Source: Candidatus Methylomirabilota bacterium (GTDB taxonomy: Bacteria > Methylomirabilota > Methylomirabilia > Rokubacteriales > CSP1-6). Taken from it: a DNA stretch of 48,254 nucleotides. Both the position numbers and the translations under genes were made by a program. Shown here in pieces: positions 9,851 through 32,316 of this stretch. The notes below the pieces were generated by a model, which searched no databases, was not told where the DNA came from, and saw nothing but the letters and a program-made list of their open reading frames with translations. The stretch is from positions 1 through 48,254 of the forward strand of contig DASTFB010000107.1 in the NCBI GenBank assembly GCA_035709005.1, given 5' to 3'. Each line of letters opens with the position of its first letter. The first letter of the stretch is position 1.

Positions 9851-9868
9851 CCCTACTGGTCAAAAGTG

Positions 9869-9891: not shown

Positions 9892-9926
9892 TGGACACCA
9901 TTACCCGCCCATTCGACCCGACTGGT

Positions 9927-11223: not shown

Positions 11224-11282
11224 AACGTGTCCCCCCTTGTCGCCCTGGTCCAGCTTCGACCAGTTCCCGTAAGGAAGTTGAA

Positions 11283-11298
11283 TGCAGGGGGGATGCCA
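11283..11298 (-). promoter_or_regulatory. Sigma-54 (-24/-12) promoter of the beta-helix gene
   Basis: The reverse strand reads TGGCATCCCCCCTGCA, matching TGGCAC-R-N4-TTGCW with the essential GG and GC correctly spaced. It is very like the pilA promoter (TGGCATCGGCTGTGCA). Transcription would begin near 11272, about 49 bases before the ATG. CTGTC motifs occur on the reverse strand at 11361-11365 and 11434-11438. Nothing else was recognised in the 230-base gap to the lipoprotein gene. Confidence 0.7.
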
Positions 11299-11453
11299 CA
11301 CCCTCCAGATCAACCGTCGTGTATCCGCATACTTATGGGTGACCTACAACGCCGGGACGAGACAGGTGACCAGGACTGGCATCCAGACTGACAAAAGACG
11401 GCACCGATTGGTCGTTCGGGTGAGGCGCGCTACGACAGCAAGGAGTGCGGGCG

Positions 11454-12164
11454 CTAACGGCTGTCCGGAAAGTCGTCCCGGACTTTGACGCTGTTCTGAG
11501 GCGTGAGGTCGAGCTTGAGATCCTCCCCGGCCTTGAGCGCCACCTTGAGGCGCCAGATGGGAGGACCGGCCACGCGGTTCGTGAGGGAATACTCTCCGGG
11601 CGGAACATCGGCGATGCGGAACATCCCGCGCTCGTCCGTCTGCACTCGATAGAACTCGTCCTCGATAGACGTGCCCTTAATACCTTTGAGGAACAGCCGA
11701 AGGTGAGGCTGGGGACGCACGCTGCCGTCCTTGCTCCACAGGACCTGCCCTGAGAGGCTGGCGCGGTCCGGGCGCGTGGGCGCCGGCTCGGAGGATGGCG
11801 CCGCCTGTGCCTTGGAGCGGAAGGCGCGGAGCCACTCGCGGGCGTCCTTGACCTCCTGCGAATCTGCCACCCCATTTGCGACGACCCACTCGAACTGGGC
11901 TTCGGCCTCGTCGCTGAGGTCGAGCCAACTCGCACTGACCGCGAGCAGGTGATGAGCCTCGACGCTGTCCGGGGTTTCGGCAACGACCTGACGGAGAAGC
12001 CGTGCGCTGGTGTCATAGTCGCGCCGCGCAATTGCCTCGCGCGCCTGGGCGAGCAGATCTGGCGGCGGCGTCGCGCTGGGCTGCAACCGCGGCGCGTCCT
12101 GGCAGGCAACGGTCAGGGTGAGTATGCCCACCGCCAGGAGCGTGAGACGGGTGACGGTGAACAT
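11454..12164 (-). CDS. Lipoprotein with TPR-like helices and a carboxypeptidase-regulatory-like domain
   Basis: 236 residues. The N-terminus is a lipoprotein signal, with the lipobox ending in TVAC (Cys21). Helical repeat-like sequence at about 37-115 (AREAIARRDYDTSARLLRQV, then a second unit containing SWLDLSDEAEAQFEWVVANG) looks like two TPR units. After a Pro-rich linker comes a beta-sandwich segment at about 135-225 with SLSGQVLWSKDG and GMFRIADVPPGEYSL, typical of carboxypeptidase-regulatory-like folds. It is the last gene of the reverse minor-pilin operon: its ATG overlaps the pilX stop (TGATG). A periplasmic or outer-membrane helper for the pilus tip or for the adjacent secreted protein is plausible but inferred. 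Confidence 0.75.
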   Translation of the reverse strand: MFTVTRLTLLAVGILTLTVACQDAPRLQPSATPPPDLLAQAREAIARRDYDTSARLLRQVVAETPDSVEAHHLLAVSASWLDLSDEAEAQFEWVVANGVADSQEVKDAREWLRAFRSKAQAAPSSEPAPTRPDRASLSGQVLWSKDGSVRPQPHLRLFLKGIKGTSIEDEFYRVQTDERGMFRIADVPPGEYSLTNRVAGPPIWRLKVALKAGEDLKLDLTPQNSVKVRDDFPDSR

Positions 12165-13420
12165 CAGCTCGAGACCTCGCGCCAGGTCCCGGGCTTCACC
12201 ATGAAGCCCTGCGGAATTCTGCCGCCAGCGTTGTTGATATTGTTGCAGTCGTAGTTGATCGAGATCGTACCGTTCGTCGTGGTATCGATCTGGGTATCGT
12301 TCGCGCCATTTTCGTTGTGAGCGATGACCGCCCCGTTGACGACGGCCGTGCCGTTCCCCGCGGTCAGGTCGTCGGCGGCGTAGACCAGGCCGTTGTAGGT
12401 GGCGTCACCGCTGAGATCGATCGAGCCCATGACGATCATCCAGCCGGAATAGGTGCCACCGCTACCGGCGATCCGGACATCGGCCATATCGGCGACATTG
12501 CTCGCCGTGGGCGGATTCCCGCTGATGGTATCCACGAACACGATGCCGTTGGGCAGGGGGACGCTCGTGCCGAAGTTGACCGCTCCGTTCCAGGTTCCGC
12601 CGGTTGACGGCCCGTTGTAGTTCGGCGGTCCCCAGTACGTCCCGGCTTGCTTGGCCATGTCCTTGAGCATGTTCAGCTCGTCCCGCGTCAGCGTCAGGTC
12701 ATTGAACGTCGTCGGGGCGTTCGGCTGGCTCTCGAGACAGCTCGGGCTCTGGCAGTCCGTTTGATTGCTGCTGCAGTCGACGCCCGCGCAGATCTGTGCC
12801 GCGCCATCCACTTCCGTGGCATTCGACGAATAGCTCCCACTCGCGGGTCCGCTGCCGTTACAGATGTTGCCATAGGCGGCGATGGCCGCGTTGCCGGACA
12901 CGAGCGTCTCGCCGTCGACGTTCAGGGCTCCAGGCGGCCGGAAGCGGTGGTTGAGCGACATCAGCGTGACGCGCACGGCGCGAGTCGCGGAGGGGTTGGC
13001 GTTGTTGGGAATCCAGCCGGTACTCGCCACCTGCACCTCGTTGGGCCTCGCCCCTGGCATGAGCTGCACCGTGTAGCCACCCACCGCCACCGGATCATTG
13101 GAGGCGGTCAGGCTGAACAGGGAGCTGCCGTCCCAGGGCGCGCCCTGCGGGCCGGCCAGTGGTGTGGCGACGCCATAGGTGACCGGGCCCGTCGGCGCCG
13201 GGCTCAGCGTCCAGATGGATCGTTCCACTCCCGCCTCGGCCAGCGTCAGGGCCTGGTCCGCCCGCTTCAGGTTCGTGGAGCTCAAGGGCTCCGTCGTGCC
13301 GAGCATGGCCAGGGCCGCGGTGAGCGACCCGAGAACAGCCAGCACCATCAGGGCTATGGGAAGTGCCATTCCGCGTTCATCGCGCAGGACCTTCAGGACT
13401 GTTGTTTTCAGAACCGGCAT
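12164..13420 (-). CDS. pilX: Large PilX-like minor pilin
   Basis: 418 residues, more than twice the length of classical PilX. The leader DERGMALPIALM (cleavage expected after Gly17) and a hydrophobic stretch to about residue 42 match the PilX N-terminal domain; the mature position 5 is Ile rather than Glu, as in some PilX/GspK proteins. The following helix, SSTNLKRADQALTLAEAGVE, is the family signature. The large C-terminal part is Gly/Asn/Thr-rich and has two cysteine pairs (AAQICAGVDCSSNQTDCQSP region). A large head is expected of a pilin at the fibre tip, where GspK-like proteins cap the complex. It is followed by the overlapping lipoprotein gene and preceded by pilW (16-base gap). Confidence 0.85.
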   Translation of the reverse strand: MPVLKTTVLKVLRDERGMALPIALMVLAVLGSLTAALAMLGTTEPLSSTNLKRADQALTLAEAGVERSIWTLSPAPTGPVTYGVATPLAGPQGAPWDGSSLFSLTASNDPVAVGGYTVQLMPGARPNEVQVASTGWIPNNANPSATRAVRVTLMSLNHRFRPPGALNVDGETLVSGNAAIAAYGNICNGSGPASGSYSSNATEVDGAAQICAGVDCSSNQTDCQSPSCLESQPNAPTTFNDLTLTRDELNMLKDMAKQAGTYWGPPNYNGPSTGGTWNGAVNFGTSVPLPNGIVFVDTISGNPPTASNVADMADVRIAGSGGTYSGWMIVMGSIDLSGDATYNGLVYAADDLTAGNGTAVVNGAVIAHNENGANDTQIDTTTNGTISINYDCNNINNAGGRIPQGFMVKPGTWREVSS

Positions 13421-13436
13421 GTCTCTTCCCCCTCCC

Positions 13437-13979
13437 CTACGAGTTGCGGAGCCGGACGGTTGTCGTGACCTGAGACTTTGTGTCGGCCACAGTCCCCGCC
13501 GGAGCGGTCTCCTCGGTGCGGGTCCGGATCGTGATGGAGACGGTCTTCGCGGTCGGGTAGGTCAGGGTCAACTGCTCGACGCCGCCGATCAGCGTCAGGA
13601 ATTGTAGATCCACGCCGGTTTCCTGCCGCTGCAGCGCGCCGCCACTCAGACGATACGTCACCCGCTCGCCCCGGAGCACCCCATCCACGGCGACCGCGAT
13701 GGCCTCGCCGACAACCCCGTTGCCATTCCAATCGGTCTGGACGGTCAGCTGGGTCGCCGTCTGATTGGCCAGCGCCTGCGCCTCGCGGATCTCGCGGGCC
13801 ATGCGTTCCAGCGCTACGCGGGCGTTCTGCTGGACCTCGACCCGATTGGATCCGTAGAGGTAAGCCCGCAGGCCGCTCTCGTGAACCGTCGCCAGGCCGG
13901 CGAGCGCCAGGCCCAGAACCGCCAAGCCGACCAGCAGCTCGGCGAGGGTGAATCCTTTCTGGCAGGCCCAGGGTGTCAT
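13437..13979 (-). CDS. pilW: PilW-like minor pilin
   Basis: 180 residues with a type III leader: MTPWACQKG cleaved before FTLAELLVGLAV, with Glu at mature position 5. The hydrophobic helix continues into RVEVQQNARVALERMAREIR, the conserved feature of PilW/GspJ-like pilins. The rest is beta-rich. It would be processed by PilD and built into a tip complex with FimT, PilV and PilX. It lies 8 bases after pilV in the same operon. Confidence 0.88.
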   Translation of the reverse strand: MTPWACQKGFTLAELLVGLAVLGLALAGLATVHESGLRAYLYGSNRVEVQQNARVALERMAREIREAQALANQTATQLTVQTDWNGNGVVGEAIAVAVDGVLRGERVTYRLSGGALQRQETGVDLQFLTLIGGVEQLTLTYPTAKTVSITIRTRTEETAPAGTVADTKSQVTTTVRLRNS

Positions 13980-13987
13980 GGCCAGGC

Positions 13988-14554
13988 CTATTGCCGCAGG
14001 GCCACGAAAGTCGTCATCTTCGCAGCCTCCTCGGTCGTGTTATTGAGCGTGCCGACGCCCGTCTGTGGTCGGAAGAACACGGAAACGGTTACCTGACGGA
14101 TACCGCTGTCCAGCACGCCGCCGCTGCATCCGGGGGGGACGCCACAATCCTCGATGCGCACCTCGCGGCGATAGAGGGGATGTCCGGCAATCGTCCCGTA
14201 GCCTTCGTCAGCAAAGGTAACGGTGCCGGTGTTGCCGGTGATGTTCAGCGGTGCCGGCGAGGCGCAGGTTGCAGTGGTCACCGTTGGCGCACTCGTCGTG
14301 GGATTCGAGCGTCCGACTGAGTCACTATAGTTCGGAAAGCAGGTCCACACACCGTTCTTGACCTGCTCGAGGCGCTGCTGGGCCAGGAACACAGCTGTGG
14401 TCCGAAAGTTCGCCTGACCGATGTGGCCCAGCGAGAGAGGGACCAGCCCCGCGAGGGCGATCAATCCGATCAGGATGACCGACATAGCGATCAGGACCTC
14501 GACGAGAGTCAGCCCGGCCTCGTCGTTCCTTACAATCGTCAGCATTCGCCTCAT
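13988..14554 (-). CDS. pilV: PilV-like minor pilin
   Basis: 188 residues. The leader is 14 residues ending in DEAG, with mature sequence LTLVEVLIAMSVILIGLIAL and Glu5 present. The motif FRTTAVFLAQQRLEQVKNG after the helix is typical of PilV/GspI. Several cysteines and Gly/Thr-rich beta segments follow. It lies 13 bases after fimT and 8 before pilW. A paralogue is encoded at 37204 on the other strand. Confidence 0.88.
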   Translation of the reverse strand: MRRMLTIVRNDEAGLTLVEVLIAMSVILIGLIALAGLVPLSLGHIGQANFRTTAVFLAQQRLEQVKNGVWTCFPNYSDSVGRSNPTTSAPTVTTATCASPAPLNITGNTGTVTFADEGYGTIAGHPLYRREVRIEDCGVPPGCSGGVLDSGIRQVTVSVFFRPQTGVGTLNNTTEEAAKMTTFVALRQ

Positions 14555-14567
14555 GTCGCTACGGTTC

Positions 14568-15047
14568 CTATTTCGTCACGCGTCCAGAGGGCGCGACGAC
14601 GACGTCACGGGTCAGCCCCTGCGCGTCGGCGATCCTGAAGACCGCTTGCGCCGGCGCCGCGCCGAGCCGATCGAACACCGGATTATTACCGGGGGGGTTC
14701 TTGGTCACGGTTACATCGCCGGCCAGCGTGTAGAAGCCGTTCGTCGCCGTTCCGGGGCCGTTCCAGACTGTCCCACCCCCGCAGGTACCCAGCCAGAATC
14801 GGTACCGCTTGGTGCCGTCGACCAGCTCCACACAGACGTTGCGGTTCCGAGCAAGGGCGAGGTGGCGGGCGTTGTTCAGCCCAGCGACCAGTTCTTCGGC
14901 TGCTGCCTTTACCGTCGACGCCCGCCAGTAGCCGATGAGGGTCGGCATTGATGCCAATGCCAAAGTGCCGAGGATGGCGAGAACAACGAGCACTTCGCCA
15001 GTGGTAAATCCACCGCTTGTCGGTCGCCGAACGACCCGATGGAGCAT
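14568..15047 (-). CDS. fimT: FimT/GspH-type minor pilin
   Basis: 159 residues from the ATG at 15047, preceded by GGAAGGAA; the frame is open further upstream but nothing there is leader-like. The leader MLHRVVRRPTSGG precedes FTTGEVLVVLAI (Glu5 present). The GspH signature follows: AAEELVAGLNNARHLALARN, then a beta-rich domain ending DVVVAPSGRVTK. FimT/GspH proteins sit in the minor-pilin tip complex; some FimT proteins bind DNA in natural transformation. It is first in the operon fimT-pilV-pilW-pilX-lipoprotein and has a sigma-54 promoter 40 bases upstream. A paralogue is at 36406. Confidence 0.88.
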   Translation of the reverse strand: MLHRVVRRPTSGGFTTGEVLVVLAILGTLALASMPTLIGYWRASTVKAAAEELVAGLNNARHLALARNRNVCVELVDGTKRYRFWLGTCGGGTVWNGPGTATNGFYTLAGDVTVTKNPPGNNPVFDRLGAAPAQAVFRIADAQGLTRDVVVAPSGRVTK

Positions 15048-15086
15048 TGGACGGTTTCCTTCCCTACACATGACCCAAGCCTTTGC

Positions 15087-15102
15087 AGCAAGGAATGGAC
15101 CA
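15087..15102 (-). promoter_or_regulatory. Sigma-54 (-24/-12) promoter of the reverse minor-pilin operon
   Basis: The reverse strand reads TGGTCCATTCCTTGCT. It fits TGG-N2-C-R-N4-TTGC-W with both invariant dinucleotides at the right distance and a pyrimidine-rich T before TGG. The predicted start of transcription is near 15076, giving a leader of about 30 bases to fimT. The neighbouring TGTC repeats fit activation by PilR. Confidence 0.75.
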
Positions 15103-15110
15103 AGCTGGTT

Positions 15111-15132
15111 GTGTCGCCTAAATCGTGTCGCC
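15111..15132 (-). promoter_or_regulatory. Candidate PilR-binding direct repeat
   Basis: GTGTCGCC occurs at 15111-15118 and again at 15125-15132, 14 bases apart, just upstream of the minor-pilin sigma-54 promoter. (C/G)TGTC repeats are the motif I recall being described for Pseudomonas PilR. The close distance to the -24 box is unusual for an enhancer, which lowers confidence. Confidence 0.4.
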
Positions 15133-15498
15133 GGAAGCAGCCGAACCGCTGAGCCTTCAAACACCGCCACGGAAAAATTCGCCATCAGTGCCAGCTTGTA
15201 CCCAGGGGCGACGAGAATTGCCGCCTTCCTGGTACACGCCCGGCGCGAGCAGACATCGTCGCCGGGATACGGCCTCTGAACCCCAGAAGACTAGGTGGTA
15301 TCGAGCACCGGTTGCTCTCACCAGGAGTGGAACGCCTTTCTCCGGCGTCAACCGACCGATGACGAGCTCTTTGGGGCGTCCCGTCGCCCACCCCCAGGTG
15401 TTGACGTGCGGCGTAGCGTTCCACTGGCGAGGAAGGGCGAAACAGCGCTCGATCGACAGGATGGGTAAAAAGGCGAGCTGGCAGGCTGGAGTGGCCAC

Positions 15499-15590
15499 GG
15501 ACCGATCGATGTGGGGGAAGCGGCCCTCACCAGGACGACGCCAACAAGATCTTTTCAGAGACATTGAAGCGGTTGGGGGAAGTAACGTAA
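15499..15590 (+). pseudogene. Collapsed remnant of the macro-domain gene
   Basis: Two pieces of the macro gene are fused with loss of the middle. 15499-15531 encodes GPIDVGEAALT, matching GPIEVGEAVLT of the intact gene. 15531-15590 encodes QDDANKIFSETLKRLGEVT then a stop, matching its C-terminus. The pieces are in different frames. The remaining sequence between fimT and pilB (15103-15498) shows no convincing gene. Confidence 0.8.
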
Positions 15591-15688
15591 GAATGCTTTA
15601 ATGGCTTATTCGAAGCTCGGGCAGTCCGTCAACCGCCGCCTCGGCGATCTTCTCGTTGCCGAAGGCCTGATTTCGCCGCAAGATCTGA
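15531..15688 (+). repeat. Right copy of the macro-gene/pilB junction repeat
   Basis: This block carries the decayed end of the macro gene plus the genuine start of pilB, complementary to the left copy at 9682-9823. The 5.7 kb between the two copies holds the beta-helix gene and the minor-pilin operon. Confidence 0.85.
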
Positions 15689-17340
15689 CCCGGGCCTTGG
15701 CGGCCCAGAAGGGCACCGCCGAAAAGCTCGGATCCGTTCTCCTCAGCCTCAAGCTCCTCACCGAGGAACAGCTGATCGGCTTCCTGTCCCGGCAGTATGG
15801 CATCCCTTCCATGACGCTCGCTCAGTTCGACGTCGATGCGGATGTGCTGCGTCTCGTGCCGGCGGCCATCGCCAAGAAGTACGAGGTTCTACCCGTGAAA
15901 CGGGTCAGCAACTCGCTGACACTCGCCATGGTCGACCCCACCAACGTCTTCGCGCTCGACGACATCGCCTTCATGACGAACCTCCAGGTTCTGCCGGTTG
16001 TGGCCTCTCAGGCAGCCATCCGCAAGGCTATCGAGCGCAACTATGAGGGTCACGGCGGTGCGGCCACCGAGAGCCTTACCGACCTGGCCAGTGACGTCAC
16101 CGCAGCGGCCGTGGAGGTCGTGGAAGACAAGGAAGCGCCCAAGCTCGACATCTTCGAGCTGAAGGAGTCGGCGGACGAGGCGCCGGTGGTGAAGCTGGTC
16201 AACATGGTGCTCGGTGACGCCATCCAGAAGGGCGCGTCGGACGTCCATTTCGAGCCCTACGAGAAGGTGTACCGGATTCGCGTTCGTGTCGACGGCGTCT
16301 TGCACGAGATCCTCTCGCCACCCAAGCGGCTGGAGCCAGCCCTCACATCGCGGATCAAGATCATGTCCAACCTGGACATCGCCGAGCGGCGGCTGCCCCA
16401 GGACGGCCGCATCAAGCTTCGCTACAACGACCGGGAGATCGATTTCCGGGTGGCCATTCTGCCGACGATCTATGGCGAGAAGGCCGTCCTCCGGATCCTG
16501 GACAAGGAGGCTCTGCGACTCGACCTCACTGAGCTCGGGTTCGATCCCGGGAGCCTCGAGCAGTTCCAGGCGGCGATCCGCCAGCCTTATGGGATGGTCC
16601 TCATCACAGGCCCCACCGGCTCGGGCAAGACCACGACGCTCTACTCGGCAATCCAGGCCATCAATTCGCCCGAGCAAAACATCCTGACCGCGGAGGACCC
16701 CGTCGAGTACAACCTGCGGGGCGTCAATCAGATCCAGATCAACGAGGCCGTGGGGCGCACCTTCGCGGCGGTCCTGCGTTCATTCCTGCGCCAGGATCCC
16801 GATGTGATATTGGTCGGCGAAACGCGCGATCTGGAGACGGCCCAGATCGCCATCCGGGCGGCCTTGACCGGCCACCTCGTGTTCTCCACGCTGCATACCA
16901 ACGACTGTCCCTCCACGGTGGCGCGGCTGGTCGACATGGGCATCCCCCCGTACCTGGTCGCATCCGCGCTCGTCCTGATCGTCGCCCAGCGCCTGGGCCG
17001 CAAAGTGTGCAACGAGTGCCGGGAATCTTACGAGATCGACCAGGAGAGCCTGACACCCTACGGGCACCAACCGACAGGACCTAGGCGGGTCACAGTCTAC
17101 AAGGGCAAGGGGTGTACGGTCTGCAACTTCACCGGCCTGAAAGGCCGAGTGGCATTTTACGAAGTCATGCCGATGACGGCGGAGTTGCGCGATATGATCC
17201 TGAGAGGCGCACAAGAGGCGGAGTTGCGCCGAGCCGCGCAGCGCTTGGGCATGCGCACGCTGCGCCAGGCGGGGCTCACCAAGGTGCTCGACGGCGCTAC
17301 GACGGTGGAGGAGGTGCTTCGAGTCACCGTCGCCGAGTAA
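15601..17340 (+). CDS. pilB: Type IV pilus extension ATPase PilB
   Basis: 579 residues. An N-terminal MshEN-type domain (about 1-150: LGDLLVAEGLISPQDLTRAL, then FLSRQYGIPSM) may bind cyclic di-GMP as in related PilB/MshE proteins. The ATPase follows with Walker A GPTGSGKTTT, the Asp box (ILTAEDPVEYNL), Walker B LRQDPDVILVGE and the His box LVFSTLHTND. Four cysteines, CNEC and CTVC, form the zinc site of extension motors. PilB is the cytoplasmic motor that adds pilins at the base. The ATG lies just after the macro-gene remnant with only a weak ribosome site. pilT and pilC follow closely, so this is a motor-platform operon. Confidence 0.97.
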   Translation: MAYSKLGQSVNRRLGDLLVAEGLISPQDLTRALAAQKGTAEKLGSVLLSLKLLTEEQLIGFLSRQYGIPSMTLAQFDVDADVLRLVPAAIAKKYEVLPVKRVSNSLTLAMVDPTNVFALDDIAFMTNLQVLPVVASQAAIRKAIERNYEGHGGAATESLTDLASDVTAAAVEVVEDKEAPKLDIFELKESADEAPVVKLVNMVLGDAIQKGASDVHFEPYEKVYRIRVRVDGVLHEILSPPKRLEPALTSRIKIMSNLDIAERRLPQDGRIKLRYNDREIDFRVAILPTIYGEKAVLRILDKEALRLDLTELGFDPGSLEQFQAAIRQPYGMVLITGPTGSGKTTTLYSAIQAINSPEQNILTAEDPVEYNLRGVNQIQINEAVGRTFAAVLRSFLRQDPDVILVGETRDLETAQIAIRAALTGHLVFSTLHTNDCPSTVARLVDMGIPPYLVASALVLIVAQRLGRKVCNECRESYEIDQESLTPYGHQPTGPRRVTVYKGKGCTVCNFTGLKGRVAFYEVMPMTAELRDMILRGAQEAELRRAAQRLGMRTLRQAGLTKVLDGATTVEEVLRVTVAE

Positions 17341-17356
17341 CGGGCCGGGAGGAACG

Positions 17357-18484
17357 ATGGCGGCTACGATGGCTGATCTGCTGCAGATCCTCGTTGATCG
17401 AGGCGGTTCCGACCTCCACATCACGACCGGCACGCACCCCCAGATCCGTATCGCCGGCAAACTAATGCCGTTGTCCGAGTTCGAGCAGCTGACGCCCCAG
17501 GACACGCAGCGATTGGCCTACAGCGTGCTGAACGAGGCCCAGAAGCAGAAGTTCGAGGAAGAGAGCGAGCTCGACCTGTCTTTCGGCATCCAGGGGTTGG
17601 CCCGATTCCGCTGTAACGTCTACCGGCAACGCGGCGCCGTCGGCGCCGCTATCCGAGTAGTGCCCTACAAGATCCGCAGCTTCGAGGAGCTCGGCCTGCC
17701 GAAAGTCGTCGAGGAGCTGGCCGAGCGGCCCAAGGGCCTCGTCCTCGTCACCGGTCCCACCGGCTCGGGAAAGTCCACGACGCTGGCCGCCATGGTGGAC
17801 AAGATCAACAACGAGCGCAGCGAGCACATCGTCACGATCGAGGATCCCATCGAGTTCGTGCACCCGCACAAGCGGTGCGTCGTGAACCAGCGGGAGGTCT
17901 TCGCCGACACCCATTCCTTCAAGAACGCGCTCAAGTCGATCCTGCGTCAAGATCCCGACGTCGTGCTGGTCGGCGAGATGCGCGATCTAGAAACCATCGC
18001 CGCTGCTATCACGATCGCGGAGACGGGTCACCTCACCTTCGGGACGCTGCACACCAACTCTTGCGCCCAGACCATCAACCGAATCATCGACGTGTTCCCG
18101 ACGACGCAACAGGCACAGGTCCGAGCCCAACTCTCACTGGTACTCGAGGGGGTGCTCTCGCAGACGCTCATCCCCAAGATCGGGGGCGGGCGGACGATGA
18201 GCATGGAAATCATGGTGGCGACGCCTGCCATCCGGAACCTCATCCGGGAGGAGAAGATCCACCAGATCTATTCTGCGCTGCAGTCCGGCGCCAAGTTTGG
18301 CATGCAGACGATGAACCAGTCCCTGGCCGATCTCGTCCGTCGCCACCAGATCACCCGCGAGGATGGCATGAACCGGTCGACCCTTCCCGAGGAGCTCGCC
18401 CAGCTGCTCCAGAGCGATGGGGGCGGGGCTTCCCCCGCGACGGCAGGCGCGGGCAGCGCGTCGCCGTTCTCCCGGCGGTCGTAG
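17357..18484 (+). CDS. pilT: Type IV pilus retraction ATPase PilT
   Basis: 375 residues. Hallmarks: SDLHITTGTHPQIRIAGKL near the N-terminus, Walker A GPTGSGKSTT, the Asp box IVTIEDPIEFVH, Walker B LRQDPDVVLVGEMRDLET, His box HLTFGTLHTN and the C-terminal AIRNLIREEKIHQIYSALQ (the AIRNLIRE motif needed for retraction). It disassembles the fibre into the membrane, powering twitching and DNA uptake. It starts 16 bases after pilB and has an extra four residues before the second Met (MAATMADLLQ). The Gly/Ala/Ser-rich tail is unremarkable. Confidence 0.97.
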   Translation: MAATMADLLQILVDRGGSDLHITTGTHPQIRIAGKLMPLSEFEQLTPQDTQRLAYSVLNEAQKQKFEEESELDLSFGIQGLARFRCNVYRQRGAVGAAIRVVPYKIRSFEELGLPKVVEELAERPKGLVLVTGPTGSGKSTTLAAMVDKINNERSEHIVTIEDPIEFVHPHKRCVVNQREVFADTHSFKNALKSILRQDPDVVLVGEMRDLETIAAAITIAETGHLTFGTLHTNSCAQTINRIIDVFPTTQQAQVRAQLSLVLEGVLSQTLIPKIGGGRTMSMEIMVATPAIRNLIREEKIHQIYSALQSGAKFGMQTMNQSLADLVRRHQITREDGMNRSTLPEELAQLLQSDGGGASPATAGAGSASPFSRRS

Positions 18485-18493
18485 GAGGCCATC

Positions 18494-19702
18494 TTGCCGA
18501 ACTTCGTCTACCGAGGGAGGACGATCGCCGGCGCTGTGGCCGGCGAGGTTGAGGCAACCGACCGGGCCAACGCTGTCGGCGAGCTCCGTTCCCGGGGCAT
18601 TCTGGTTACCGCCGTCACCGAGCGGCGGACCAGGGCCGCGACATCCGCTCGACGTGGTGGCGGAGGCAAGGTCAAGGACCGAGAGCTCGCCGTGTACACC
18701 CGTCAGTTCTCGGCGATGATCGACGCCGGCCTGCCGATCACCCAGTGCCTCTCGATCCTGGCCGAGCAGACGGAATCCAAACACCTCCGCAACGTCACCC
18801 AGCAGATCGTCAAGGAAGTAGAGGCGGGCGCCGCCCTGGCTGACTCTTTCCGCAAGTTTCCCCGAGTCTTCAACGATCTGTTCACCAACATGCTGCAGGC
18901 CGGCGAATCGGCCGGCGTGCTTGACGTGGTCCTCCAGCGGTTGGCGGCCTACATCGAAAAGGCCGCTTCGCTGAAGCGTAAGGTCAAGGGCGCCATGGTG
19001 TACCCCGCGACTATTATCTCCGTGGCCGTCCTCGTGGTGATCTTCATGATGACGTTCGTCATCCCGACCTTCAAAACCATGTTTACGGGGTTGGGGGCCG
19101 ATTTGCCGCTGCCGACCAAGGTCGTGCTCTGGGCGTCGGACTTCACCCGCAAGTACATCCTCTACATCTTCGCCGCCATGGCCGCCTTCGTGTTCGTCCT
19201 CAAGAAGTACTATGCTACCGAGTCGGGTAGCATGGTCATCGATTCGCTTCTTCTCAAGGTGCCAGTCATTGGCGTCCTCATCCAGAAAGTATCGGTGGCG
19301 CGATTCACCAGGACACTGGGGACGATGATCTCGTCCGGCGTCCCGATTCTTGAAGCGCTCCGCATCACGGCCCGCTCTGCCGGTAACCGGGTGGTGGAGA
19401 AGGCGGTCATGCAGGCCCGGGCGGCGGTCACGTCGGGGCGCACGCTGGCCGAGCCACTGCGAACGGCGGCGGTCTTCCCGCCCATGGTCGTTCACATGAT
19501 CAACGTCGGCGAGTCGACCGGAGCCCTCGACCAGATGCTGGCCAAGGTGGCCGACTTCTACGACGACGAGGTTGATACCGCGGTGGGTGCTCTCATGTCA
19601 CTGCTGGAGCCGGCGATGATCGTCATTCTCGGCGTCATCATCGGCGGCCTGGTCGTCGCGCTTTATCTACCGATCTTCAAGATCGTGACCCTGATCAAGT
19701 AA
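18494..19702 (+). CDS. pilC: Type IV pilus inner-membrane platform protein PilC
   Basis: 402 residues, with two GspF repeats (about 65-190 and 270-395) and three predicted membrane segments, including AMVYPATIISVAVLVVIFMM and AMIVILGVIIGGLVVALYLP. Motifs VYTRQFSAMIDAGLPITQCL and FTRTLGTMISSGVPILEALR mark the two repeats. PilC couples the PilB/PilT motors to pilin movement. The start appears to be TTG at 18494, with TAGGAGG overlapping the pilT stop as ribosome site; no ATG is available near. Confidence 0.96.
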   Translation: MPNFVYRGRTIAGAVAGEVEATDRANAVGELRSRGILVTAVTERRTRAATSARRGGGGKVKDRELAVYTRQFSAMIDAGLPITQCLSILAEQTESKHLRNVTQQIVKEVEAGAALADSFRKFPRVFNDLFTNMLQAGESAGVLDVVLQRLAAYIEKAASLKRKVKGAMVYPATIISVAVLVVIFMMTFVIPTFKTMFTGLGADLPLPTKVVLWASDFTRKYILYIFAAMAAFVFVLKKYYATESGSMVIDSLLLKVPVIGVLIQKVSVARFTRTLGTMISSGVPILEALRITARSAGNRVVEKAVMQARAAVTSGRTLAEPLRTAAVFPPMVVHMINVGESTGALDQMLAKVADFYDDEVDTAVGALMSLLEPAMIVILGVIIGGLVVALYLPIFKIVTLIK

Positions 19703-19722
19703 GCGGAAGACGCGGCAAGCAA

Positions 19723-22122: not shown

Positions 22123-22153
22123 GGGTCCCCGGGGCCGGGGGCCATAGCGCCGG

Positions 22154-23215: not shown

Positions 23216-23226
23216 CAGCTGACGTC

Positions 23227-23592: not shown

Positions 23593-23593
23593 A

Positions 23594-25492: not shown

Positions 25493-26723
25493 GAGGGCCC
25501 CCCGCTGTCGTCGCGTCGGCTTTCGCAGCACGTTGGAGGTGAGCGAGGAGTCGGAGGCCGGCCTGCTCCATGGTCCAGCGCTCGCTGACGGCCGCGGCCG
25601 CGGCGCGGCCGATCTTCCGCCGCTTGCCGTCATCCGCCAGCAGCTCGGACACCGCGGCGGCGAACAGCCCTTCGTCCCGCTCGACGAGGATGCCGGTGTC
25701 GCCGTCGACGATGCTTTCCCGCAGGCCACCCTCCTTCACGGCCACCACCGGCGTCCCGCAGGCCATGGCTTCCAGGGGCGCCAGGCCAAAGGGCTCCAGA
25801 TACGCACCGTAGACGAACACCCGGGCGCGGTTGTACAGCTGAACCAGCTGGGGATCCGAGACGAGAACTCGGATGTCCAGCACGACGCCCTGGCGGGCCG
25901 CCAGCGTCTCGATGTAGCGCTGCCAGTCGTGATCTATCCCATTCGCCACCAGCACGAGTCGAGGCCGGCGTCGCTCCTCGATGCGGGCGAGGGCTCGCAC
26001 GATGAAGTCGTGGCCCTTCATCGGCCCCATGTAGCCCACCGACATCACATAATCGTCCTCGTCCTCGTCCTGGTGCGCGAAGAGCTCGTGGTCCACGCCG
26101 AGGTAGCAGACCGACGCGTTCATACCGTAGACCCGAAGGATCGCCTCTCGTGAGAAGTAGGAGTTCGCAAGGATCGACCGGGCTGCCGAAGCATTGCCGC
26201 GGTCGATCTGGACCAGCCGGGCCTCGGCGTAGCGGCGGGCCAAGTCGATCCGCAACAACGGCGCGCGGTGCACGTTGCCCTCCCGGCGGACGGTCTCGTT
26301 CACGCGCTCCTGTTGCCGGCAGGGCTGCTGACAGTAGTAGACGTGCGGCGTGACCAGGTACTTGAGGATGAAGGGCGACATCGTGTAGCGGTCTTGCTCC
26401 ACGAACACCGCCTCATAGTCGCCCTCATCGATCACCGCCGCGATCCGCCGCTGGGTACGTTCCAGATCCGCCAGCGACACGGACAGCGGCGCGATCGGCG
26501 GCAGATAGCGGAGCGCAGAGGTGACAACCCCGGACCATGTCGCGCCAACCGGAAAGACCTCGACGCGCCTGGCCAAGTCCCGCAAGCTCAAATACGCTTC
26601 GTCCGCTCCCACCGGGATGAGCACATCGATCGCACACCCCGCGCGGTGGAGCTGCTTGACCAGGCCGTAGAGGGCCCGTTTCGCGCCACCCGCCGGCAGG
26701 TTGTGAAAGACCGCGAGTCTCAT
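25473..26723 (-). CDS. Glycosyltransferase family 4 (GT-B)
   Basis: 416 residues starting at ATG 26723, which overlaps the methyltransferase stop (ATGA). The N-terminal domain opens MRLAVFHNLPAGGAKRALYG, a donor-fold glycine loop. The C-terminal domain has the GT4 signature FGLAPLEAMACGTPVVAVKE followed by GGLRESIVDGDTGILV, including the EX7E glutamates. A Cys/Gln-rich stretch HVYYCQQPCRQQERVNE is distinctive. It would retain sugar configuration while adding to a lipid-linked or surface glycan. The reading frame is open much further upstream, but that part is the shadow of the methyltransferase gene. Confidence 0.88.
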   Translation of the reverse strand: MRLAVFHNLPAGGAKRALYGLVKQLHRAGCAIDVLIPVGADEAYLSLRDLARRVEVFPVGATWSGVVTSALRYLPPIAPLSVSLADLERTQRRIAAVIDEGDYEAVFVEQDRYTMSPFILKYLVTPHVYYCQQPCRQQERVNETVRREGNVHRAPLLRIDLARRYAEARLVQIDRGNASAARSILANSYFSREAILRVYGMNASVCYLGVDHELFAHQDEDEDDYVMSVGYMGPMKGHDFIVRALARIEERRRPRLVLVANGIDHDWQRYIETLAARQGVVLDIRVLVSDPQLVQLYNRARVFVYGAYLEPFGLAPLEAMACGTPVVAVKEGGLRESIVDGDTGILVERDEGLFAAAVSELLADDGKRRKIGRAAAAAVSERWTMEQAGLRLLAHLQRAAKADATTAGGPRGAGRE

Positions 26724-27463
26724 ATCTTTCGCGCAACCGCGACCAGGTCGTGGCTGAACGCCGCCGGGCACACGCCGAGGAACTTGCCGAGCACCCACAA
26801 CCCCACCCCGCGGACGGCTGCCCTCGTCTGGCCGATGACCCACGCGTCCAGGCGGGGGACGCGCTCGTAGTCCAGCATCACCGGTGCGAATCCGGTCAGA
26901 GCCAAGCACTGCCGCAGGCCGTCCGGCGCAAATGGAGTCTCGTGCGTGAAGTCCCTGTAAAAGACCCGACCCCACGTCGGATTGTCGGCGTTGGTCACGC
27001 GGATCACGATGAGCCCCTCACGATCCAGCGCGGCGTGGCACCGATCAAGCAGCTCGAGCACTCGATCCTTCGACAAATGGTCCAGGAGGTCGATCACGGC
27101 GATGGCCGCGAACGCCCCTCCCCGCCGCACATACTCGAAAACATCGGCGAGCTCGAAGACGACCTTCGCAGCGGCGTCGAGTCCGTGCTCCGCGAGCTTG
27201 CCCCGGGCGATGACCAGCTGCTCCTCGGATACATCCACCGCGTGGAGATTGCGGAACCCCCGCCGCAACAGATAGTGCTCGAGGTACCCGACGCCGCACG
27301 GCAGATCCAGGATCGGGGCTTCCTTTGGCAGGGCTGAGAAGTAAGGGCCAAAGTTCACGTCGATCCTCCTGATCGCCCACTCCCAGGCGGCCGCGCTCTG
27401 CGGCATCACTCGATGGTAGTGCGTGGACCAGTACCGCTGGACGAGTCGCTCCTGATAGTTCAT
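26720..27463 (-). CDS. Class I SAM-dependent methyltransferase
   Basis: 247 residues from ATG 27463, overlapping the flippase stop by ATGA. Motif I is ILDLPCGVGYLEHYLLRRGF, motif II the acidic LHAVDVSEEQLVIAR, and then FELADVFEYV and AIAVIDLLDHLSKD. The C-terminal hydrophobic region (RGVGLWVLGKFLGV) resembles family members that work near membranes. In this setting methylation of a glycan or its lipid carrier is likely, but the acceptor is not visible. Confidence 0.85.
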   Translation of the reverse strand: MNYQERLVQRYWSTHYHRVMPQSAAAWEWAIRRIDVNFGPYFSALPKEAPILDLPCGVGYLEHYLLRRGFRNLHAVDVSEEQLVIARGKLAEHGLDAAAKVVFELADVFEYVRRGGAFAAIAVIDLLDHLSKDRVLELLDRCHAALDREGLIVIRVTNADNPTWGRVFYRDFTHETPFAPDGLRQCLALTGFAPVMLDYERVPRLDAWVIGQTRAAVRGVGLWVLGKFLGVCPAAFSHDLVAVARKI

Positions 27464-29016
27464 GGCATGCGTCCTCCGAAGACCGCCAGCACGCTGTTCC
27501 GGTCGTCGCGAGTCAGCACCCAGTGCCACGACGCCGTCGCCGCGCCGACGACCATGGCGCATACCGCCACCGCCCGCAATAGATGGTCTTCGGCGAGGCC
27601 GTCCAGCATCACCCCCGCCGCCCCCAGCGAAACGATGATCGCCAGCGGTCGGCCTAGGTCGCGCACTGCCAACGTGAAGCGAAGATGGACGATCCGGCTG
27701 GCAACCACCGACAGCACGGCGGTCTCCGCGAGGGCCCGGATCCCGAACGACAAGGCGGCGCCGGGAAGGCCAATCGCGTTCACCAGCGCCCAGGTCAAGG
27801 CGGCATTGAGGGGAAGGGCGCACAGGTACAGCGTCGCGATGACGCGAGGACGACCATAGCCTTCGATGACGCTTCCCGAAACTGGCGCGATCGCCGCGAA
27901 CATCGAGGTCAGGGCGAACAGCTGCAGCGGCAAGGTCCCGTGCCTCGCGAAATCCTCACCCAGCCACAGGCCGAGCAGTGGCCCGGCATAAACCGTGAGC
28001 ACCAGGGCGATCGGGCTCATGGCCAGGACCAGATAGCTCACGCTGCGCACGAAAAGCTGACGAGCGCGGGCCAGATCGGGCCTGCCGCTCAATGCGGTGA
28101 AGGCGGGAAAGAGGGTCAGGACCAAGCTCGTCGGCAGCATCCACACCCGCTCGATCAGATCAAAGGGGGCGGCGTAATAGGCGAGCGCCGACATGGACAG
28201 CAGCGCCCCGATAACATAGCGATCCACGTAACGCAGGCAGGGAGCCGCGATCTGGCACATGGCGATCCATCCCCCAAAGGACCAGAGCCGCGCCATGAGC
28301 GCCCGCCGGGGCCGTTGCAGTCGCTTCAAGTCGGGAAAGATCCGCATGCTCAACACGAGCCAGGCCAGCAGCGCCCCAGCCCGCGCCAGCAGGAGTAGCC
28401 CGACGATGCCGGGCAGCCCGAACCCCAAGAGCACCCCGATCAACGGCATCAGGAACGTGAGCACGCCCGTGGGCAGCCGCACCGCCATCACCAGATCGAA
28501 GCGCTGGGCCGCTTCCAGCGCCCCGGCGAACGAAGTGGACACTGCGATCACTGGAATGGTCAGCGCGACGAGCACGAAGGCGACCTGGGCGTCGCCGGCG
28601 AGATCCGGCGAGACGCTCAGAACGCGACCGACGACCACCGGCGCGAGGCCCGCGCCGAGCAGGCCGCTCGTCGCTCCTACAAGCAACTGCACGGCAGCCG
28701 CCGTCCACACGAGCCGGGGAATGTCCTCCTGGTTCCCGCCGCCGAGCGCCTCGGCCACCGTCCTGGTCGTGGCCCGGCCGAGGCCGACGTCGAAGATCGC
28801 GACGTTGGCCAGCAGGACCCAGACCAGGGAGAGCACGCCGAAGCGCTCCACACCCAGGGCGGGAACGAGGAGCGGGATGGCGAGCAACGCGGCCACGAAC
28901 GGCGTCGCCTGACTCAGAACGTTGAGGCCGGTGTTCCGGACGAGCAGTTTGCCCCCGAACTCCACGGCTGGACGGGGTCTCGCACTGCTAGGCGGTATCC
29001 GATCATCGCGGTTCAT
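27460..29016 (-). CDS. Polysaccharide flippase (Wzx/MATE-like)
   Basis: 518 residues from ATG 29016. About 12-14 hydrophobic segments run the whole length, starting with SQATPFVAALLAIPLLVPAL. GVERFGVLSLVWVLLANVAI and FDVGLGRATTRTVAEALGGG are hallmarks of the polysaccharide-synthesis flippase family. It would move lipid-linked oligosaccharide across the inner membrane. It is first in the leftward glycan operon, with ATGA coupling to the methyltransferase. The 96-base interval to divergent pilS contains a rightward TTGACA (29064-29069) without a good -10; I cannot place the operon promoter. Confidence 0.88.
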   Translation of the reverse strand: MNRDDRIPPSSARPRPAVEFGGKLLVRNTGLNVLSQATPFVAALLAIPLLVPALGVERFGVLSLVWVLLANVAIFDVGLGRATTRTVAEALGGGNQEDIPRLVWTAAAVQLLVGATSGLLGAGLAPVVVGRVLSVSPDLAGDAQVAFVLVALTIPVIAVSTSFAGALEAAQRFDLVMAVRLPTGVLTFLMPLIGVLLGFGLPGIVGLLLLARAGALLAWLVLSMRIFPDLKRLQRPRRALMARLWSFGGWIAMCQIAAPCLRYVDRYVIGALLSMSALAYYAAPFDLIERVWMLPTSLVLTLFPAFTALSGRPDLARARQLFVRSVSYLVLAMSPIALVLTVYAGPLLGLWLGEDFARHGTLPLQLFALTSMFAAIAPVSGSVIEGYGRPRVIATLYLCALPLNAALTWALVNAIGLPGAALSFGIRALAETAVLSVVASRIVHLRFTLAVRDLGRPLAIIVSLGAAGVMLDGLAEDHLLRAVAVCAMVVGAATASWHWVLTRDDRNSVLAVFGGRMP

Positions 29017-29112
29017 CGCCGACCATCTCAGAATCGCATGATGGCCGCGAGCCGCGAAAATTCTTGACAAGTATCGCGCCGAAACAGGACCCTGGGAAAA
29101 AGGCGCGGCGCA

Positions 29113-30756
29113 TTGATCGGATCCCCTCACGAGCGTCTCGACCTCGACCGCATGCTCCGTGTCTTCGCATGGGGCCGACTGGTCGTGGCTGTGCTCCTCG
29201 GCATCACCGCGCCCTTCATTCCGTCCGACCTCCTGCCCAGGACGAACGCCGGCTTGTTGCTGGCGGCCTTTTTTACGGTGGTAGCGTCCTCGGCGGCGGT
29301 ATTGCTGCTCCACTCGACGGTGAGGCCGCAACGGACAGCGTGGTGGGTCTGCCTGCTCGACATCGTCCTCGTCACCGGCGTGGTCGCGACCACCGGCGGC
29401 GCCAAGTCGATCCTCGCGTTTCTCTACGTGCTACTGGTGACCGCCGCCGGCATGGTGCTGTCCCGCCCCGGCGGCCTCATGATCGCGGTCCTGTCCAGCG
29501 GCATGTACACGGCGCTCGTTTTCGTGCGCACCGTCGTCCCCGTCACCCACTTCTGGGAGCCGATTGGGGAAGGGATGGCGCTCGAGATCCTGACCATCTT
29601 CGTCAACGCTGGGACGCTACTCGTCGTCGGCATCACTGCGGGTAGCCTCGCCGAGCGGATCCTGGCCGCCCAGCACGAACTGGAGACTCGCGGCCGAGAC
29701 CTGAAGGACCTTCAGGCCTTTAAGGACCTCATCTTCCAATCCGTAGGCACCGGACTGATCGCGCTTGATCGAGACGAGCGGATCACCGCCTTCAACCGGG
29801 CCGCCGAGGCCATCAGCGGCGTCCCCGCCACGGTCGCCGTCGGGCGACGGTGGGCAGAGCTCTTCGGGGGGCTGTCCCCACGGGCGTTGACGACTCTCGG
29901 CGCGCCGGCGTCAACCCGGCACGAGCTCGAGCTCAACCGTCCGGACGGCACGCGAACGCCCATCCGGGTCACTACCTCGCCCCTGCTCTCGAGCGACGGA
30001 ACCCGCATCGGGGTCATCGCGGCATGCGAGGACCTCTCGCGGATCCGGGAGATGGAAGCCCACATGCGTCGGGCCGATCGTCTGGCCGCCCTCGGTCGCC
30101 TGGCCGCGAACATCGCGCACGAGATCCGCAATCCACTGGCCTCGCTGACCGGCGCCATCGAGGCCCTAGCCACGGGCGGCAGCCGAGAAGAGCGGGAACG
30201 GCTGACCCAGATCGTGTTGCGCGAGTCGGAGCGACTCGACGACATGATCAAGGCCTTTCTTGACTATGCGCGGCCGACGCCGCTGTCGAGGGCCGTGGTA
30301 GACGTTGCCAGCGTCCTGGACGATGTGCTCCTCCTTCTCGAGCACCGCGAGTTGCCGCCCGGACTCAAGATCGTTCGGAGCTTCCCTCCCATGCTGCCGT
30401 GGGATATCGACCAACATCGTCTGCGGCAAGCGCTCTGGAATCTGTGCCTCAATGCCGTCCAAGCCATGCCCGCCGGCGGTGAGCTGAACGTGAGCGCCAG
30501 CGCCGACGATCGCACCTTGAGGATCACCGTCAGCGACACCGGCGAGGGGATAGCGCCGGCCGACCTCAGCAACGTGTTCGAGCCCTTCTTCTCGACCAAG
30601 CCCGGTGGGAGCGGGCTTGGGCTGGCGCTCGTGCACCGCATCGTTCACGAGCACGGCGGCGATATCCAGGTCCAGAGCGCCCCCGGGCTGAGGACCACGT
30701 TCGTGATGACCTTACCGGCTCGGCATCCCGCGATCCCGGAGCCGACGCATGCCTGA
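29113..30756 (+). CDS. pilS: Sensor histidine kinase PilS
   Basis: 547 residues from TTG 29113; an ATG 13 codons on is an alternative start. Residues ~15-185 contain six hydrophobic segments, as in PilS. A PAS domain (about 205-310: FQSVGTGLIALDRDERITAF) precedes the kinase. The phosphoacceptor is His in NIAHEIRNPLASL; the ATPase has NLCLNAVQAMP (N box), DTGEGI (G1) and GGSGLGLALVHRIV (G2). PilS senses pilin levels in the membrane of Pseudomonas. It overlaps pilR by 8 bases, so the pair is co-translated. Confidence 0.93.
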   Translation: MIGSPHERLDLDRMLRVFAWGRLVVAVLLGITAPFIPSDLLPRTNAGLLLAAFFTVVASSAAVLLLHSTVRPQRTAWWVCLLDIVLVTGVVATTGGAKSILAFLYVLLVTAAGMVLSRPGGLMIAVLSSGMYTALVFVRTVVPVTHFWEPIGEGMALEILTIFVNAGTLLVVGITAGSLAERILAAQHELETRGRDLKDLQAFKDLIFQSVGTGLIALDRDERITAFNRAAEAISGVPATVAVGRRWAELFGGLSPRALTTLGAPASTRHELELNRPDGTRTPIRVTTSPLLSSDGTRIGVIAACEDLSRIREMEAHMRRADRLAALGRLAANIAHEIRNPLASLTGAIEALATGGSREERERLTQIVLRESERLDDMIKAFLDYARPTPLSRAVVDVASVLDDVLLLLEHRELPPGLKIVRSFPPMLPWDIDQHRLRQALWNLCLNAVQAMPAGGELNVSASADDRTLRITVSDTGEGIAPADLSNVFEPFFSTKPGGSGLGLALVHRIVHEHGGDIQVQSAPGLRTTFVMTLPARHPAIPEPTHA

Positions 30757-32170
30757 GCCTCGAGTCCTCGTCGTCGACGACGAGCGGAGCATGCGGGATC
30801 TGCTCGCCATCACCCTGCGGCAACACAGCTACGATGTCGCGGTAGCCGACGGCGGTGAGGCCGCGCTCGCCGCACTGAAGGCCGGCGACTTCGACCTCGT
30901 GATCACCGACCTCCGGATGCGTAAGCTCGACGGGCTGGCCGTGCTCAAGGCCGCCAAGGAACTGTCGCCAGAGACGGTCGTCCTCGTCGTCACGGCCTTC
31001 GCCTCCACCGACACCGCCGTGGAGGCGATGAAGCTCGGCGCTTATGACTACATCACCAAGCCATTCAAGCTCGAGGAGATTCGGCTGACCGTGGATAAGG
31101 CCCTGGAGCGCAAGCGGCTCCAGGACGAGAACGTTGCCCTCAAGCGGCAGCTCCGCAAGCACCAGGGCTTCGACAACTTTATCGGGCGAAGCCGCGCCAT
31201 GCTCGAGGTCTTCGGCACGATTCGCAAGACCGCGGATTCTACGTCCACGGTGATGATTACCGGCGAGAGCGGAACCGGCAAGGAACTGGCGGCCCTGGCC
31301 GTCCATCACGAGAGCGGTCGCCGCAACGCAGCCTTCGTCTCGGTGAACTGTGGGGCCATCCCGGAAGGGCTCATGGAGTCCGAGCTGTTCGGGCACGTCA
31401 AGGGGGCGTTCACTGGCGCCGTTGCCAACTCGCCCGGCCTCTTCTCGGCGGCCGACGGGGGCACGCTCTTCCTCGACGAGGTGACCGAGGTCCCGCATTC
31501 CGTTCAGGTGAAGCTGCTCCGCGCGATCCAGGAACGAGAGGTCCGCCGTGTCGGCGACACCCGCGACATCAGGGTCGACGTACGCCTCATTGCGGCGTCC
31601 AACCGGGACCTCTCGCGGGCCGTCGCCGAGGGCCTGCTCCGCGAGGATCTGTTCTACCGGCTGAACGTGATTCCCATCCACCTGCCGGCACTTCGCGAGC
31701 GGAAGGAGGACATTCCGCTGCTGGTCGCGCACTTCATCGATAAGATCGGCGCTGCCACCGCCAAGCCTGTACACGGCATCTCGCCGGAGGGTCTCGCTCT
31801 CCTGGAGGCGTATCACTGGCCTGGCAACGTTCGGGAGCTGGAGAACATCATCGAGCGGGCCATCGTCCTCGGGAATGGTGGGCAGATCACGCCGGAATCG
31901 TTCCCGCCCAACCTTTTGCATCCAGCCGAGGGGCCCGAGATCCCCCTGGACGTGCCTGACGACGGGCTCAATCTCGAGGGCATGCTCGATCGTTTGGAAC
32001 GCCAGTACATCCAGCAGGCACTGCACCGCACGGGGGGCAACCAGACACGGGCCGCAGCCCTGCTCGGGCTTAGCTTCCGTCAGCTCCGCTACAAGGTCCG
32101 CAAACATGGCCTGCAGACTGACCATCTGACAGAGCCGCGCGACAGTGCCCGGTCGACAGTCCAGGACTGA
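30749..32170 (+). CDS. pilR: Sigma-54-dependent response regulator PilR
   Basis: 473 residues. The receiver domain (1-120) has Asp54 in VITDLRMRKLDG and the acidic VVDDERS. The AAA+ activator domain has GESGTGKE, the sigma-54-contacting GAFTGA loop (HVKGAFTGAVAN), FLDEVTEV and the arginine-finger region. The C-terminus is a Fis-type helix-turn-helix (GGNQTRAAALLGLSFRQLRY). It activates sigma-54 promoters; three candidate targets in the window are described separately. Its last codons overlap the repeats at 32128-32196 that may be its own binding sites for pilA. Confidence 0.95.
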   Translation: MPEPRVLVVDDERSMRDLLAITLRQHSYDVAVADGGEAALAALKAGDFDLVITDLRMRKLDGLAVLKAAKELSPETVVLVVTAFASTDTAVEAMKLGAYDYITKPFKLEEIRLTVDKALERKRLQDENVALKRQLRKHQGFDNFIGRSRAMLEVFGTIRKTADSTSTVMITGESGTGKELAALAVHHESGRRNAAFVSVNCGAIPEGLMESELFGHVKGAFTGAVANSPGLFSAADGGTLFLDEVTEVPHSVQVKLLRAIQEREVRRVGDTRDIRVDVRLIAASNRDLSRAVAEGLLREDLFYRLNVIPIHLPALRERKEDIPLLVAHFIDKIGAATAKPVHGISPEGLALLEAYHWPGNVRELENIIERAIVLGNGGQITPESFPPNLLHPAEGPEIPLDVPDDGLNLEGMLDRLERQYIQQALHRTGGNQTRAAALLGLSFRQLRYKVRKHGLQTDHLTEPRDSARSTVQD

Positions 32171-32196
32171 GCCGTCTGCCATCGTTCGTCTGACAC
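32128..32196 (-). promoter_or_regulatory. Candidate PilR enhancer repeats upstream of pilA
   Basis: On the reverse strand CTGTC occurs at 32128-32132, 32141-32145 and 32155-32159, at 13-14 base steps, and GTGTC at 32192-32196. The first three lie inside the end of pilR. They are 105-175 bases before the pilA -24 box, the normal distance for a sigma-54 enhancer, and fit the (C/G)TGTC motif I recall for Pseudomonas PilR. Confidence 0.5.
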
Positions 32197-32300
32197 GTTT
32201 CGTCACCTCTGCCAGCTTCGCGCGTCAGTCGGACCCCGGCCTGAGACGTGGGATGGTGCCTAACGTAGCGGATTGCTTGGGCTCCATCGATTGAATGCTC

Positions 32301-32316
32301 TGGCATCGGCTGTGCA
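32301..32316 (+). promoter_or_regulatory. pilA: Sigma-54 (-24/-12) promoter of pilA
   Basis: TGGCATCGGCTGTGCA fits TGGCAC-R-N4-TTGCW with GG and GC ten bases apart. Transcription would start near 32326, giving a leader of about 69 bases. Lying between pilR and pilA, it is the expected site of PilR action. Confidence 0.8.

Follow-up and report, generated by a model that had tools for sequence, protein, structure and literature searches.

The contig DASTFB010000107.1 of a Candidatus Methylomirabilota bacterium (GCA_035709005.1; 4.59 Mb in 134 contigs, this one being our C107) was analysed over its full 48,254 nt, called here the window. It contains a pilus cluster with pilS, pilR and the major pilin gene pilA, a minor-pilin operon headed by fimT and a gene for a secreted beta-helix protein, each of the last three genes being preceded by a sigma-54 type site. 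Probably a single sigma-54 activator, for which the adjacent PilR is the best candidate, acts on both pilA and the beta-helix gene, with fimT served by a separate promoter.

The promoter before pilA and before the beta-helix gene

The features needed for the comparison are the following (dyads and middle elements are candidates):

29113..30756, plus strand, pilS, sensor kinase (6TM_PilS, HisKA, HATPase_c)
30749..32170, plus strand, pilR, sigma-54 activator and presumed regulator (Response_reg, Sigma54_activat, HTH_8)
32191..32205, plus strand, pilA activator dyad 1, TGACACGTTTCGTCA, conserved at the pilA promoters of relatives
32213..32227, plus strand, pilA activator dyad 2, 22 bp from dyad 1, right half GTCA intact and left half degenerate
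32259..32275, plus strand, pilA middle element, CCTAACGTAGCGGATTG (YTAAGTNNCTGAAA-like in relatives)
32301..32316, plus strand, pilA sigma-54 -24/-12 site, rank 1 in the window
32395..32889, plus strand, pilA, major pilin of 164 aa (N_methyl)
11389..11403, minus strand, beta-helix activator dyad 1, TGCCGTCTTTTGTCA, rank 3 in the window with a matrix from relatives
11367..11381, minus strand, beta-helix activator dyad 2, TGCCAGTCCTGGTCA, 22 bp from dyad 1
11321..11337, minus strand, beta-helix middle element, CATAAGTATGCGGATAC, aligned to the pilA promoter profile
11283..11298, minus strand, beta-helix sigma-54 -24/-12 site (matrix, profile)
10129..11223, minus strand, secreted beta-helix protein of 364 aa (Pfam, NCBIfam, structure model)
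15087..15102, minus strand, fimT sigma-54 -24/-12 site, inside a decayed pilD tail

All three 16-mers have GG and GC ten bases apart with consensus flanks and lie upstream of a gene, at the positions and on the strands reported by the first-pass annotation. Its distance of 40-70 bases to the start codons becomes 39-78 on measurement, the values from site end to ATG being 39 nt for fimT (ATG 15047), 59 nt for the beta-helix gene (ATG 11223) and 78 nt for pilA (ATG 32395). About 96,500 positions on both strands were scored with a consensus-type sigma-54 matrix; its consensus is quoted in the available part of PMC2725144. The expectation that the three sites would be the top hits was borne out among the 35 upstream regions of the window, taken as 160 nt before each putative gene start (scores of 13.0, 11.5 and 11.1; next best 7.8), and only in part over the whole window, where they hold ranks 1, 3 and 5, ranks 2 and 4 falling within long open reading frames (ORFs). 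For RpoN itself, the genome has two matches over cut-off to the DNA-binding domain PF04552 (own contigs C133 and C96), one of them partial. A sigma-70 scan of 9700-15700 found no site, with a mean of only 0.9 in shuffled DNA, and an Rfam scan of the window gave no matches at E up to 1. We take the three to be real sigma-54 type sites, as judged from sequence.

In the window and in relatives, pilS and pilR are found directly upstream of pilA, and PilS joins a transmembrane domain (PF25323, 35.4 bits against a cut-off of 27) to a kinase core. Of 45 pilR orthologue loci in the family (29 loci and 16 further stretches), 41 have a -24/-12 site behind pilR, called by pattern plus a score of 7 or more; the others are one locus with no downstream DNA (L072) and three where none passed (L051, L055 and L074). 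The dyad TGAC-N7-GTCA is present with at most one mismatch in 31 of these 41 pilA promoters, being exact in 25, and ends 84-121 nt before the -24 element, mostly 94-99 nt. Alignment of 21 pilA promoters revealed two tandem dyads TGMC-N7-GTCA, a TAAGT-like (YTAAGTNNCTGAAA-like) middle element and TGGCAY-N6-TGCA. In our reading the candidate middle element resembles an IHF site, and the layout is reminiscent of promoters of the NtrC type, in which two enhancer sites are combined with a site of DNA bending.

The same elements stand in the same order upstream of the beta-helix gene, with a dyad spacing of 22 bp at both genes; its dyads are imperfect, the left halves reading TGCC. The fairer test of this likeness is a profile made only from the sequences of the 21 relatives' pilA promoters, since the own genome was excluded from its training and it was not fitted to the beta-helix site. 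Among the best 150 of 6161 first-look candidates scored in the genome, this profile gave 29.0 bits to pilA, 26.4 to the beta-helix gene and 15.7 to the third match. The E-values for the beta-helix gene, which are rough, were 3.3e-5 over the genome and 3.5e-7 over the window, where only pilA and the beta-helix gene were found and no other match at E 10. When a profile of 29 relatives was searched by nhmmer against the window and own-genome loci, the top match was the beta-helix gene (E 1.9e-6), followed by pilA of the window (E 0.0023), and a dyad matrix from relatives only placed the pilA dyad second and the beta-helix dyad third in the window. Since the profile has just two strong matches in the genome, it is the whole promoter, rather than the bare motif, that singles out these two sites. 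We suggest that the beta-helix gene carries a near-complete copy of a pilA-type promoter, and that both genes very probably share a regulator.

Throughout the family, a pattern of dyad plus sigma-54 site was found in 42 of 56 genomes, against one match in the reversed control, and profile matches at E 0.01 were found in 40 of 56 (best 61 candidates scored per genome). Behind 30 loci of the pattern there are 12 pilins, 4 GT2 glycosyltransferases, 3 lipoprotein-like proteins, 2 STAS proteins, 1 response regulator and 8 unclassed genes. Twenty profile matches were also examined, one of them being a pilR-linked pilA; an ORF could be called behind 12, of which nine encode pilins, one a GT2 and one a small protein, the last being a doubtful frame. 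By both counts this type of promoter precedes pilins more than any other class of gene, with other genes present too. As the pilA-type promoter is shared and most often precedes pilins in relatives, the beta-helix gene probably belongs to the PilR/pilin regulon.

Further genes with related promoters were seen. Outside the pilus cluster the genome encodes PilA a second time, with 95.7% identity to the first copy (own contig C84, L239, 8723-9217). On own contig C102 (L024 / L240, 8803-9210) a sigma-54 site also precedes a third, pilin-like gene, which has a TGAC-N7-GTCA dyad farther upstream and a weak profile score. In relatives, a GT2 glycosyltransferase lies behind the dyad plus sigma-54 promoter at L196, L198, L211, L214 and L284, and a link to pilin glycosylation or to the envelope is possible.

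Several observations weigh against a common pilin-type control of pilA and the beta-helix gene, or limit the evidence for it. The bare motif TGGCAYN6TGCA shows no enrichment in the genome (30 matches against 31 in the reversed control), and likewise none within the window. Many equal sites, which the first-pass annotation considered a refutation, are therefore found for the bare motif, and not for the whole profile; two more pilin genes (L018 and L024) and a sigma-54 activator gene (L022) lie downstream of some of the 30 matches. Ten of the 41 relatives' pilA promoters have no dyad, the second PilA gene has a sigma-54 site with no clear dyads, and the top dyad score of the window belongs to a chance site inside pilS coding DNA. 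A 37-nt dyad pattern speaks in favour, with three genome matches (pilA, the beta-helix gene and one other) and none in the reversed control, but its M was chosen after the beta-helix site was seen. Also in favour, a dyad and a sigma-54 site 80-105 nt apart occur twice in the real window and never in 400 simulated windows, but at thresholds set just under the beta-helix values. The strict family pattern misses the beta-helix gene because of its TGCC left halves, only the 12 loci mentioned above, of 30, precede pilins, and 16 of the 56 genomes, several having pilR-pilA, give no profile match at E 0.01. Finally, with PilR as the query the genome gave at least 28 matches of NtrC type, counting PilR itself (28 of 132 candidates scored), and no full-length beta-helix match was found in 94 other genomes of the phylum at E 1e-10. 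Conservation of the sites before orthologues, another expectation of the first-pass annotation, was observed for pilA and, as described below, for fimT, whereas for the beta-helix gene no orthologues were found in the genomes searched.

The probable activator and the fimT site

From the linkage of pilS-pilR to pilA, together with precedent, we infer that PilR would be the dyad-binding protein. It would bind two dyads TGMC-N7-GTCA, 22 bp apart, whose beginning lies 105-110 bp ahead of the -24 element; at the middle element the intervening DNA may be bent, and RpoN polymerase would start from TGGCAY-N6-TGCA. Both genes would then answer the same pilin-sensing PilS signal, and the beta-helix protein would be exported during pilus building, its probable place of action being the cell surface or the matrix. 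The minor-pilin operon would use its own conserved, dyad-free sigma-54 promoter, which overlaps the pilD 3' end in relatives, and in this genome it would have been moved or copied along with a decayed pilD piece still bearing that promoter. The features concerned are:

14568..15047, minus strand, fimT/GspH-type minor pilin (GspH; homologues in the family)
13988..14554, minus strand, pilV-like minor pilin (N_methyl; best NCBIfam match PilV, below cut-off)
13437..13979, minus strand, pilW-like minor pilin (N_methyl; named by position)
12164..13420, minus strand, PilX-like protein of 418 aa (named by position; no Pfam match)
11454..12164, minus strand, TPR-type protein, after the minor pilins in relatives also
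15086..15203, minus strand, decayed 3' pilD fragment (limits converted from the alignment to the pilD of relative G052)
35512..36258, plus strand, intact pilD, prepilin peptidase (A24_N_bact, Peptidase_A24)

In a single three-gene PilR regulon, as first proposed, PilR would act on fimT from sites that are weak or far away, and we consider this rather unlikely. The fimT upstream site, counted at a score of at least 10, is kept in 27 of 29 relatives' loci (the misses being L107 and L109), and minor pilin genes change in pilR and pilA mutants of P. aeruginosa, an effect described as Vfr-dependent in the available part of PMC6058289. However, no pilA-type dyads were found upstream of the window fimT (best score 1.4 within 450 nt). 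Among 30 loci taken from the family fimT matches, in many of which the fimT start is approximate, a dyad score of at least 14 within 450 nt was found in one (L104, where the dyad and the fimT site downstream of it are 73 nt apart) and of at least 10 in two. The regulon proposed by the first-pass annotation is thus retained for pilA and the beta-helix gene, on profile and dyads, and loses fimT, whose site appears to be a related but separate, conserved sigma-54 promoter without pilA-type dyads.

It is improbable that a different NtrC-type activator of several envelope genes owns the dyads, in which case pilA and the beta-helix gene would be co-regulated, not by PilSR. The number of NtrC-type matches in the genome means that another activator could do so, and relatives have this layout also before genes for GT2, lipoprotein-like and STAS proteins and a response regulator. 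Nevertheless, it is pilS-pilR that stands immediately upstream of pilA, here and in relatives, the largest class of genes behind the layout is that of pilins, and PilR-pilA is a known pair in Pseudomonas and Geobacter (available parts of PMC6058289 and PMC2725144).

As to the fimT site itself, the operon lies on the minus strand of the window, adjoins pilB and starts with the decayed pilD tail, which shares 67% DNA identity with the G052 pilD over 128 alignment columns, the 16-nt site being identical. In relatives G051, G052 and G048, fimT comes after pilD and the site falls within the codons of the GPFLA peptide near the pilD end, so that the site evidently derives from pilD. The site could also be a mere by-product of this conserved prepilin peptidase peptide and no promoter, which seems very improbable to us. 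It does overlap the GPFLA codons, via a leucine CTT, in 14 of 24 distinct pilD loci, and the fimT prepilin motif begins 8-20 nt past the pilD stop in the 9 of these 14 loci where it was measured. On the other hand, only 6% of the leucines in 12 window genes are encoded by CTT; as a high score at GPFLA requires CTT, the evidence is the 14 of 24 and not the CTT within the 14. Five of the ten pilD loci without a GPFLA site have a separate intergenic one (scores of 11.3-13.2), and L114, also without it, has a site upstream of fimT. Neither form is present at L075, L081, L107 (with CTG, although 28 nt from fimT) or the intact pilD of the window, whose GPFLA codons (36172-36186) use CTC, which agrees with a by-product. 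Since the 16-mer remained intact in the window while the pilD tail around it decayed, the site seems to have been maintained as a promoter.

Least credible of all is a chance resemblance at the beta-helix promoter: the lack of enrichment of the bare motif would suit it, but the profile E-values, even if rough, and the empty simulated windows leave it a negligible probability.

A direct repeat (9680-9816 and 15529-15683, blocks 79-94% identical), containing the end of what we read as a macro-domain-like ORF and the start of pilB, flanks the minus-strand block of fimT operon and beta-helix gene; its presence at both sides suggests insertion or duplication of this block. A second, diverged minor-pilin set with no sigma-54 site is found at 36385-38050, between pilD and pilM, the position of the fimT operon in relatives.

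The beta-helix protein

The protein has, by eye, a hydrophobic Sec-type leader, followed by a NosD/parallel beta-helix region at 37-210 and an Ig-like C-terminal domain of about 110 aa at about 250-362. TIGR03804 repeats were detected with 72.3 bits (cut-off 19.45), and Pfam NosD and Beta_helix also match; a NosD maturation protein was rejected, TIGR04247 reaching 58.7 bits against a cut-off of 300. A prepilin leader was not found (no N_methyl match in Pfam). The structure model (mean pLDDT 71, pTM 0.51) shows a confident beta-helix core and a beta-sandwich end, and its Foldseek matches are tailspikes, depolymerases, Ig-like domains and the AlgG epimerase, the lowest E being 3.8e-4 and the TM-scores low (at most 0.36 by query). 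A sequence search against solved structures gave no matches at E 0.01. At the DNA level the leaders of the beta-helix gene and pilA are only weakly alike (in a small set, best E 0.028). Within the family no full-length match was found at E 0.001, and a single distant one came from the named genome collection. To call the protein an adhesin, or to have it act on polysaccharides, would be a guess from the fold, and the pilus-exported or pilus-associated adhesin or enzyme of the first-pass annotation would likewise be speculative.

The C-terminal domain has a conserved DxNxDGxxD-like loop and is common to varied secreted proteins of relatives. No pilA-type promoter was found before other genes with this domain in six loci, two of which (L151 and L154) end at a contig edge before any upstream DNA. 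At one locus (L150, contig C327 of G019) the domain occurs in a protein encoded near PilY1-, PilX-, PilW- and FimT-like genes, the names PilY1 and PilX being our reading, with no pilA-type promoter.

The protein begins with MSWW, and F-W or W-W is often seen close to the N-terminus of PilA in the family; in 6 of 37, with starts as chosen by script, WW falls in the first seven residues. Given this start and a kind of promoter that in relatives most often precedes pilins, it is possible, and we propose it only tentatively, that the beta-helix gene took its promoter, leader and perhaps first codons from a lost pilA paralogue. In that case a non-pilin secreted protein would have come under pilin autoregulation, in which PilS senses the membrane pilin pool, and would be exported in step with pilus building.

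Known systems and significance

NosD and other parallel beta-helix proteins share with this one the Pfam NosD and Beta_helix matches and the TIGR03804 repeats, but NosD proteins differ from it by the subfamily score given above and by the extra Ig-like C-terminal domain found here. The Thermus competence-associated pilin, which reportedly has a beta-solenoid fold, likewise connects such a fold with type IV pili; unlike the beta-helix protein, which has no prepilin match, it is a pilin.

The PilS-PilR/pilA systems of Pseudomonas aeruginosa and Geobacter sulfurreducens, according to the available parts of the sources, likewise encode a PilS-type kinase and an NtrC-type PilR upstream of pilA and have an RpoN-type promoter. 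The present system differs from them in the tandem dyads TGMC-N7-GTCA, 22 bp apart, in the sharing of the pilA-type promoter by a beta-helix gene that encodes no pilin, and in a fimT promoter that overlaps pilD in relatives. PilR regulons extending to other surface genes have been reported (parts of PMC6058289 and PMC2725144). NmpR of Myxococcus xanthus is also an NtrC-type regulator with two dyads upstream of a sigma-54 site, but its dyad is GCGCA-N5-TGCGC (PMC11841059, in part), and no comparable dyad was found in the available part of PMC3333781. Our literature search found nothing on PilR in Methylomirabilota or on an intragenic promoter within a prepilin peptidase gene.

The fimT site would represent a promoter overlapping the codons of a conserved protease motif, intact here after the decay of the surrounding gene. 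The results offer a testable grammar of pilA-type promoters in an uncultured bacterial family, of which 56-57 genomes were searched; this grammar predicts the genes that would rise with pili and points to a non-pilin member, the beta-helix protein, as a candidate surface factor.

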